NCBI GenBank assembly: GCA_017644005.1
Contig: JAEPMJ010000003.1
Span: 1-64,000 of the forward strand
Reading direction: 5' to 3'
DNA from: Rhizobiaceae bacterium
Lineage (GTDB): Bacteria; Pseudomonadota; Alphaproteobacteria; Rhizobiales; Rhizobiaceae
Length of the DNA: 64,000 bases
The notes under the pieces are model-generated. The model did no database searches. It was not told where the DNA came from and saw nothing but the letters and a program-made list of their open reading frames with translations. Shown here piece after piece: positions 41,677-42,720 of the stretch. Positions within the stretch are counted from its first letter, which is position 1. Each line of letters starts with the position of its first letter. The translations under genes and the position numbers were made by a program.

Positions 41677-42276
41677 ATGAAAAAGCTGCTTTCAGGTCTT
41701 GCCCTCGTTTCCGCCATCGGGCTGACGTCCGGCTGCGCGCCCGATTTCAAGGAGCAGCAGGCAAACGCGGTGGTGCCGCACAAATTTGTCGCCTGTTACA
41801 GCTACGGGTGCCGCAAGCGGGTTACCTTCCCGATCACGCAGCAGGTGAACGACCGGTTCGCAACGATCATGTCGGAAGGCCGAGGCTCGGCGGAGGCGGA
41901 GCGGCAAGCGATCCGCAAGGCGGTGGCGTATTATGAAGACCTGTCGACCGCGCGCATTGGCACGAGAGACGATCCCAAATCGCCGGTGGCGGCGTCCGGC
42001 AAGCCCGGTCAGATGGATTGCATCGATGAATCCACCAACACCAAACATGTTCTGCTCTACCTGCAGGCGCGGCAGCTTCTGGCCTACCATTCAGTACAGC
42101 CCAACACATCTCGCGGGGTGTTGATCGATGGGCGTTATCCGCACTGGACCGCCGTGATCAAGGACACCGGCGGTAAGAAATGGGCGGTGGACAGCTGGTT
42201 TGAACCTGGCGGTGGCCTGCCGGACGTCGATCCGCTCGACTATTGGCGCACCCGCGGAGTTATGGGTGAGCGCTAG
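41677..42276 (+). CDS. Lipoprotein with transglutaminase/papain-like Cys-His-Asp motif arrangement
   Basis: Lipobox-like SAIGLTSGC; MDCIDESTN ... YPHWTAVI ... WAVDSWF. Confidence 0.7.
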   Translation: MKKLLSGLALVSAIGLTSGCAPDFKEQQANAVVPHKFVACYSYGCRKRVTFPITQQVNDRFATIMSEGRGSAEAERQAIRKAVAYYEDLSTARIGTRDDPKSPVAASGKPGQMDCIDESTNTKHVLLYLQARQLLAYHSVQPNTSRGVLIDGRYPHWTAVIKDTGGKKWAVDSWFEPGGGLPDVDPLDYWRTRGVMGER

Positions 42277-42311
42277 GCGCAGCTATTCCGCTCTGGGCTA
42301 TATAAAAAACA

Positions 42312-42343
42312 ACACCCGCCGGGGGAGGAGATCCGGCGGGTGT
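42312..42343 (-). ncRNA. CUCCUCCC-loop hairpin 3, also the U-tailed terminator of the DUF1127 transcript
   Basis: Minus-strand ACACCCGCCGG-ATCTCCTCCC-CCGGCGGGTGT followed by TTGTTTTTTATA. Confidence 0.8.
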
Positions 42344-42352
42344 CGTTTCTAA

Positions 42353-42385
42353 GATCGGCAATTGGGAGGAGGAGTATTGCCGATC
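42353..42385 (-). ncRNA. CCUCCUCCC-loop hairpin 2 (cuckoo/CcsR-like sRNA unit)
   Basis: Minus-strand GATCGGCAAT-ACTCCTCCTCCCA-ATTGCCGATC, perfect 10-bp stem. Confidence 0.8.
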
Positions 42386-42392
42386 AAGTCCA

Positions 42393-42420
42393 CGGGTTTC
42401 GGGGAGGAGGTCGAAACCCG
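42393..42420 (-). ncRNA. CCUCCUCCC-loop hairpin 1 (cuckoo/CcsR-like sRNA unit)
   Basis: Minus-strand CGGGTTTCG-ACCTCCTCCC-CGAAACCCG, perfect 9-bp stem. Confidence 0.8.
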
Positions 42421-42437
42421 CGAAACTCAGTGTTTGA

Positions 42438-42578
42438 TTAGACCGAACGGCGAGCGACGTAGGGAATGTCGCCACGGTTGATGCCCAGATCGTTGAGCTC
42501 ACGGCTCGACAGGCGGTTCAACTCGTTGACGGTTTCGCGGTAGCGGCGCCAGTTGCGGTAGTTACGGATCAGGTTCAT
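42438..42578 (-). CDS. DUF1127-domain small protein (46 aa)
   Basis: MNLIRNYRNWRRYRETVNELNRLSSRELNDLGINRGDIPYVARRSV, DUF1127 signature. Confidence 0.93.
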   Translation of the reverse strand: MNLIRNYRNWRRYRETVNELNRLSSRELNDLGINRGDIPYVARRSV

Positions 42579-42682
42579 GGTCGTTTTCCTTCGATGGAGC
42601 CCAGCGCCTGCCGGGCTCTGAATTCTGTGTATCTCGTTACGTCCATGAGATAGGGAGTAGGGGCCGATTTGAGAAGCGCATA

Positions 42683-42720
42683 TGTTGCATGGCAGCATTG
42701 CGTTTTGTGCAATGCAATAT
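42683..42720. promoter_or_regulatory. Nested inverted repeats in the divergent DUF1127/DUF2157 promoter region
   Basis: Outer TTGCAT(42685-42690)/ATGCAA(42712-42717); inner GCATTGC(42695-42701)/GCAATGC(42709-42715). Confidence 0.5.

Follow-up and report, generated by a model that had tools for sequence, protein, structure and literature searches.

Small RNAs whose hairpins expose CCUCCUCCC loops were described as families in 2011 (PMC3927594). The founding member of the αr14 group, NfeR1 of Sinorhizobium meliloti (SmelC397/Smr14C2), a stable RNA some 115-123 nt long, uses three redundant anti-Shine-Dalgarno loops to block translation of ntrB and of two ABC-transporter mRNAs, acts independently of Hfq and has LsrB as its activator (PMC10746234, PMC7143759); only one of the six αr14 copies of S. 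meliloti is reliably detected on blots (PMC7143759). In Rhodobacter, the ccaF1-CcsR operon is expressed as one RpoHI/RpoHII-driven transcript that is cut by RNase E, and its DUF1127 protein CcaF1 aids maturation (PMC10253847, PMC8625941). The CIN1 locus (Reinkensmeier and Giegerich 2015), in the definition cited by PMC10253847, combines a short DUF1127 gene with CcsR-like/cuckoo RNAs in alphaproteobacteria. DUF1127 genes are also among the VtlR-activated Brucella targets for which the VtlR motif CAATGCAGCCATGCA is reported (PMC12595884), and DUF1127 proteins of Agrobacterium act by binding the PhoR protein (PMC12501420).

We analyzed a locus of a Rhizobiaceae bacterium in which a DUF1127 gene is followed by an array of such hairpins. 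It lies within a stretch of 64,000 nucleotides, hereafter the window, and comprises the following features:

42682-42717, minus strand: conserved stretch TTGCATTGCACAAAACGCAATGCTGCCATGCAACAT around the predicted operator
42686-42700, minus strand: predicted VtlR/LsrB-type operator CAATGCTGCCATGCA, agreeing with the VtlR motif CAATGCAGCCATGCA in 14 of 15 bases
42648-42676, minus strand: putative promoter core, proposed from the sequence, CTTCTC (42676-42671), 17 nt, CTATCT (42653-42648)
42438-42578, minus strand: gene for a DUF1127 small protein of 46 aa, MNLIRNYRNWRRYRETVNELNRLSSRELNDLGINRGDIPYVARRSV, with ATG at 42578 and TAA at 42440-42438
42307-42429, minus strand: alpha-r14 (cuckoo) sRNA with three hairpins, RF02344
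42393-42420, minus strand: core of hairpin 1, loop ACCTCCTCCC, from sequence and fold
42353-42385, minus strand: hairpin 2, loop ACTCCTCCTCCCA, from sequence and fold
42307-42348, minus strand: hairpin 3, loop ATCTCCTCCC, with a G+C-rich stem and an inner core at 42343-42312, from sequence and fold
42301-42312, minus strand: T-rich tail TTGTTTTTTATA of the terminator
41642-40140, same strand as the DUF1127-array unit: trmFO

The 46-aa product matches PF06568 with 62.9 bits (E 2.2e-17, cut-off 23.3), and the first stem begins 10-20 nt behind its stop codon, 10 nt if the extended stem is considered. The stems of the three hairpins are unrelated to each other, while the loops, read on the minus strand, are all of the CCUCCUCCC type; the loop of hairpin 3, UCUCCUCCC, deviates from CCUCCUCCC at its first position, as it does in several relatives. 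The predicted fold of the RNA consists of exactly these three hairpins, with -67.1 kcal/mol vs -31.9 in shuffles (z = -10.6). An earlier note on this DNA had described, behind a DUF1127 gene, three hairpins that share a loop motif although their stems are unrelated. This is correct to the base; the positions and loops given there hold, yet hairpins 1 and 3 fold with longer stems than noted. Judged by eye, hairpin 3 and its T-tract form an intrinsic terminator, and the U-tail directly after this hairpin agrees with the proposal that it doubles as the terminator. On the minus strand, sigma-70 and terminator scanners detected neither a promoter nor a terminator; the terminator scanner is limited to loops of 3-8, so that a 10-nt loop is invisible to it.

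The locus is a member of the known alpha-r14/cuckoo family and as such ordinary for rhizobia-like bacteria. Indeed, the Rfam model RF02344 (ar14) matches with 103.1 bits, far above its gathering threshold of 58.8, and is complete over model positions 1-123. By comparison, the CcsR1 model (RF02791) matches hairpins 1 and 2 with 47.8 bits (E 1e-10) and does not reach its cut-off of 65.3, and membership in the CcsR family is rejected by this score. The interpretation in the earlier note is largely right and its parallels were well chosen, the closer one being alpha-r14/cuckoo and not CcsR. Matches to the Rfam families 6C, ar7, Rhizobiales-2 and sX13 were all sub-threshold and reflect the shape of hairpins with C-rich loops. 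The ar14 family is widespread: it is found in 45 of 61 genomes, many of which have several matches, and each of ten named Rhizobiales genomes that we checked has two to eight. The genome studied here carries only two ar14 arrays, the second one (60.8 bits) being located at C9:518019-518138.

Like NfeR1, the RNA of the window has three hairpins, a length of ~123 nt, CCUCCUCCC loops, hypervariable stems and a terminal hairpin with a T-tail. NfeR1 is driven by a promoter of its own immediately ahead of the RNA, whereas here the closest conserved operator and promoter elements are found upstream of the DUF1127 gene, and the sRNA would need to be cut out of a longer transcript. In gene order the locus resembles the ccaF1-CcsR1-4 operon of Rhodobacter sphaeroides, where a DUF1127 gene is likewise followed by tandem hairpin RNAs with the terminator last; however, that operon encodes four CcsR RNAs instead of one three-hairpin unit, is driven by an RpoHI/RpoHII promoter rather than preceded by a VtlR/LsrB-type box, and its CcaF1 protein comprises 71 aa as compared with 46 aa here. 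The locus combines an RNA of the NfeR1 type with the gene order of ccaF1-CcsR. It also agrees with CIN1, as far as the second-hand definition of the latter goes: a short DUF1127 gene lies adjacent to and upstream of the array, the CCUCCUCCC-loop hairpins follow immediately on the same strand, and we found no difference from that definition.

The pairing of gene and array is conserved. In each of the five same-genus relatives, the array is directly preceded by a DUF1127 gene, and in a sample of 84 distinct arrays about 30 have such a gene 5-81 nt upstream; of the others, some come after a phasin gene and the remainder are free-standing. The unit of DUF1127 gene and array is located upstream of trmFO, and on its strand, in Mesorhizobium amorphae, Mesorhizobium sp. 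ORS3324 and WSM3859, Phyllobacterium and Aminobacter. Given this shared trmFO neighbourhood, the locus looks orthologous across Mesorhizobium, Phyllobacterium, Aminobacter and the organism of the window, whose TrmFO is closest to homologues from these three genera (up to 83-84%). Several of the trmFO-linked loci contain a second DUF1127 gene, and their arrays have five to seven hairpins. Between array and trmFO, the window contains a reading frame of 199 aa that matches no Pfam family (41677-42276, plus strand), convergent with the array. This frame is absent from the corresponding place in Mesorhizobium, where the array ends just 70-150 nt before trmFO.

Upstream of the DUF1127 gene, TTGCATTGCACAAAACGCAATGCTGCCATGCAACAT is the best-conserved piece in relatives, and among six same-genus loci CTATCT is kept in five and CTTCTC in four. 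Within the 3.7-Mb genome, CAATGCTGCCATGCA is the only perfect match to CAATGCNGCCATGCA; allowing up to two mismatches yields 101 sites vs 20 for the backward-read control, such that weak matches alone mean little. The box written with degenerate bases occurs once in each of four same-genus genomes and twice in a fifth, every time including the DUF1127-ar14 promoter, and it recurs ahead of the DUF1127-array unit in Mesorhizobium, Aminobacter and Brucella rhizosphaerae. Furthermore, boxes with up to three mismatches precede 19 of 33 DUF1127-linked arrays, as opposed to 4 of 51 other arrays and 4 of 490 shuffled controls. This is the same kind of operator as that of the VtlR-regulated DUF1127 genes in Brucella and of the LsrB-activated AbcR1 and NfeR1 in Sinorhizobium, but here, unlike at those targets, a single operator precedes both a DUF1127 gene and an alpha-r14 array, a combination that Brucella rhizosphaerae shares.

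The predicted operator is situated before the DUF1127 gene, 273 nt upstream of the first stem, and not, as in the NfeR1 subtype, with a sigma-70 promoter and the LsrB box directly upstream of the sRNA. Many stand-alone arrays have a related, weaker box ~60 nt ahead of their first stem, which is about the position of LsrB binding in the NfeR1 promoter; this promoter reads CTTAGAC-N17-CTATAT (PMC10746234) and is resembled by the putative promoter core of the window locus. From these boxes, both kinds of αr14 locus, DUF1127-linked and stand-alone, seem to share one LysR regulator. Elsewhere in the genome, an AbcR-like RNA (C8:22085-22258; RF02345, 36.5 bits, slightly short of its cut-off of 40) adjoins a LysR gene, and one of the next-best VtlR-type boxes is found 49 nt upstream of this RNA. 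An abcR gene next to lsrB is the arrangement known from Sinorhizobium (PMC8844928), which the LysR gene beside the AbcR-like RNA matches as an lsrB/vtlR arrangement.

We consider it likely that the locus is a VtlR/LsrB-activated stress/nutrient operon of the alpha-r14 type (CIN1-like) with two products, the DUF1127 protein and a processed silencing sRNA. The most serious competitor is an RpoH-dependent, Rhodobacter-like ccaF1-CcsR unit, from which the hairpins would be cut as separate sRNAs with the help of an RNA-binding DUF1127 protein. The identical gene order (PMC10253847) and the CcsR1 match to hairpins 1 and 2 speak for such a unit, and a processing role of the protein would suit it as well, although this role also fits the alpha-r14 reading. 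Yet the CcsR1 match stays below its cut-off, in contrast to the ar14 match, which greatly exceeds its threshold. A VtlR/LsrB-type box makes up the conserved block upstream, and the core, as read from the sequence, appears to lack a CTTG element; by eye, we saw no CTTG-type -35 element upstream of the DUF1127 gene. Moreover, since DUF1127 proteins of Agrobacterium bind PhoR (PMC12501420), RNA binding cannot be assumed. A CcsR-type operon thus appears improbable. With RF02791 below its cut-off and a promoter that looks VtlR/LsrB-activated rather than of the RpoHI/RpoHII kind, the closest parallel is alpha-r14/NfeR1, not CcsR.

To compare stems and loops, we aligned 19 arrays linked to DUF1127, taken both from the same genus and from further genera of the family. 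CCTCCTCCC is invariant in hairpins 1 and 2 and nearly so in hairpin 3, and the columns without variation correspond for the most part to the loops, with CCTCCTCCC in hairpins 1 and 2 and CTCCT(C)CC in hairpin 3. In the stems, by contrast, 25 of 31 pairs show two-sided changes, and none of 500 shuffles reaches any of five measures. Cells are paired in 90.7% of cases vs at most 48% in slid controls; as the structure was derived from the window sequence, this favours the unslid version in the number of paired cells, but far less in the count of double changes. Counted hairpin by hairpin, TCCTCCC is kept in 263 of 266 distinct units with 172 different inner stems, a count that is partly circular because motif and pairing were themselves used to find the units. 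The expectation that stems covary while loops stay fixed is thereby borne out in relatives. This pattern is best explained if the stems matter solely as structure and the loops as sequence.

The same pattern bears on the view that the hairpins mainly stabilize and terminate the DUF1127 mRNA as its 3'-UTR and give no trans-acting sRNA. Hairpin 3 as a terminator and a first hairpin no more than ~20 nt past the stop codon are what one would expect in this case; however, a stabilizer would need stems and not a fixed 9-nt loop, whereas it is the stems that vary freely and the loops that are fixed. In addition, the same arrays are also found without DUF1127, and NfeR1 was shown to silence in trans (PMC10746234), so that we regard a mere 3'-UTR function as even less probable than a CcsR-type operon. 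As for an origin as chance repeats or as a mobile palindromic element, octamers rich in C and T abound in this G+C-rich genome, and CTCCTCCC alone is not rare (5 copies in the window vs 1.75 expected, 64 genome-wide), but within a perfectly paired stem of 9 bp or more it occurs in the window only at these three sites and never in 100 first-order Markov windows, and together with the fold z-score, the stem covariation, the conserved position and a genome with just two arrays this leads us to reject such an origin as next to impossible.

For the alpha-r14 operon that we favor, the following course of events can be proposed by analogy with relatives. A LysR regulator of the VtlR/LsrB kind would bind at 42686-42700 and activate the promoter just downstream. 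Judging from the spacing, we infer a single transcript for gene and array; this short RNA would encode the 46-aa DUF1127 protein and terminate at hairpin 3. An RNase cut past the stop codon but upstream of hairpin 1 would then free a stable sRNA of ~120 nt, whose three exposed CUCCUCCC loops may serve as redundant seeds that pair with purine-rich, GGGAGGAG-like Shine-Dalgarno sequences of trans-encoded mRNAs. In this way the sRNA probably silences other genes, masking the ribosome-binding site of each target mRNA, and translation of transporter, catabolic-enzyme and perhaps ntrB mRNAs would be blocked. Expression, processing and targets at this locus are thus modelled on its relatives. The DUF1127 protein may bind RNA, as does CcaF1, or PhoR, as in Agrobacterium, both of which are published for DUF1127 proteins.

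GGGAGGAG sites lie before start codons in 20 of 58 cases vs a background of 17%, which we do not count as support, since a plain Shine-Dalgarno preference suffices: any strong Shine-Dalgarno sequence can pair with the loop seed, and enrichment is expected even without regulation. In this genome, a GGAGGG-type site precedes the start of ntrB and gives duplexes with the loops at -9.8 to -12.5 kcal/mol, a weak finding that is compatible with the target known from S. meliloti.

On novelty the earlier note needs correcting: the family, its pairing with the gene and its mechanism have each been described in the literature (PMC10746234, PMC7143759, PMC3927594, PMC10253847). New elements may be the shared operator before the combined DUF1127-αr14 unit and a phasin-linked class of arrays, for which Reinkensmeier and Giegerich 2015 would be the likeliest earlier source; among the papers that our search covered, none names both DUF1127 and NfeR1. 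The locus provides a clean, well-conserved αr14 case from an unstudied bacterium related to Mesorhizobium and Phyllobacterium, together with the comparative test of loops and stems. It also offers a testable hypothesis of control, in which one LysR operator would be common to the AbcR-like RNA, the stand-alone αr14 loci and the DUF1127-αr14 unit. If true, this shared operator would tie redox/nutrient sensing to a broad repression of uptake genes.

A bolder and rather doubtful extension is that the DUF1127 peptide itself binds the αr14 RNA and matures it from the 3' end of its own VtlR/LsrB-controlled operon, with a phasin gene supplying the second αr14 copy at its 3' end. Such a self-maturing operon, if true, would join the VtlR-DUF1127 regulon of Brucella and the LsrB-NfeR1 regulon of Sinorhizobium into one conserved Rhizobiaceae-Phyllobacteriaceae module.

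Two observations concern arrays at other loci. A phasin gene (PF09361) precedes the second alpha-r14 array of this genome, at C9, its stop codon lying 25 nt before the array, and a similar phasin-like gene is found ahead of arrays in four same-genus relatives, in five other genera of the family (L059, L063, L078, L083 and L090) and in Mesorhizobium amorphae. In three other members of the family (L031, L081 and L094), alpha-r14-type arrays have grown to 9-12 tandem hairpins, which are partly near-identical repeats.
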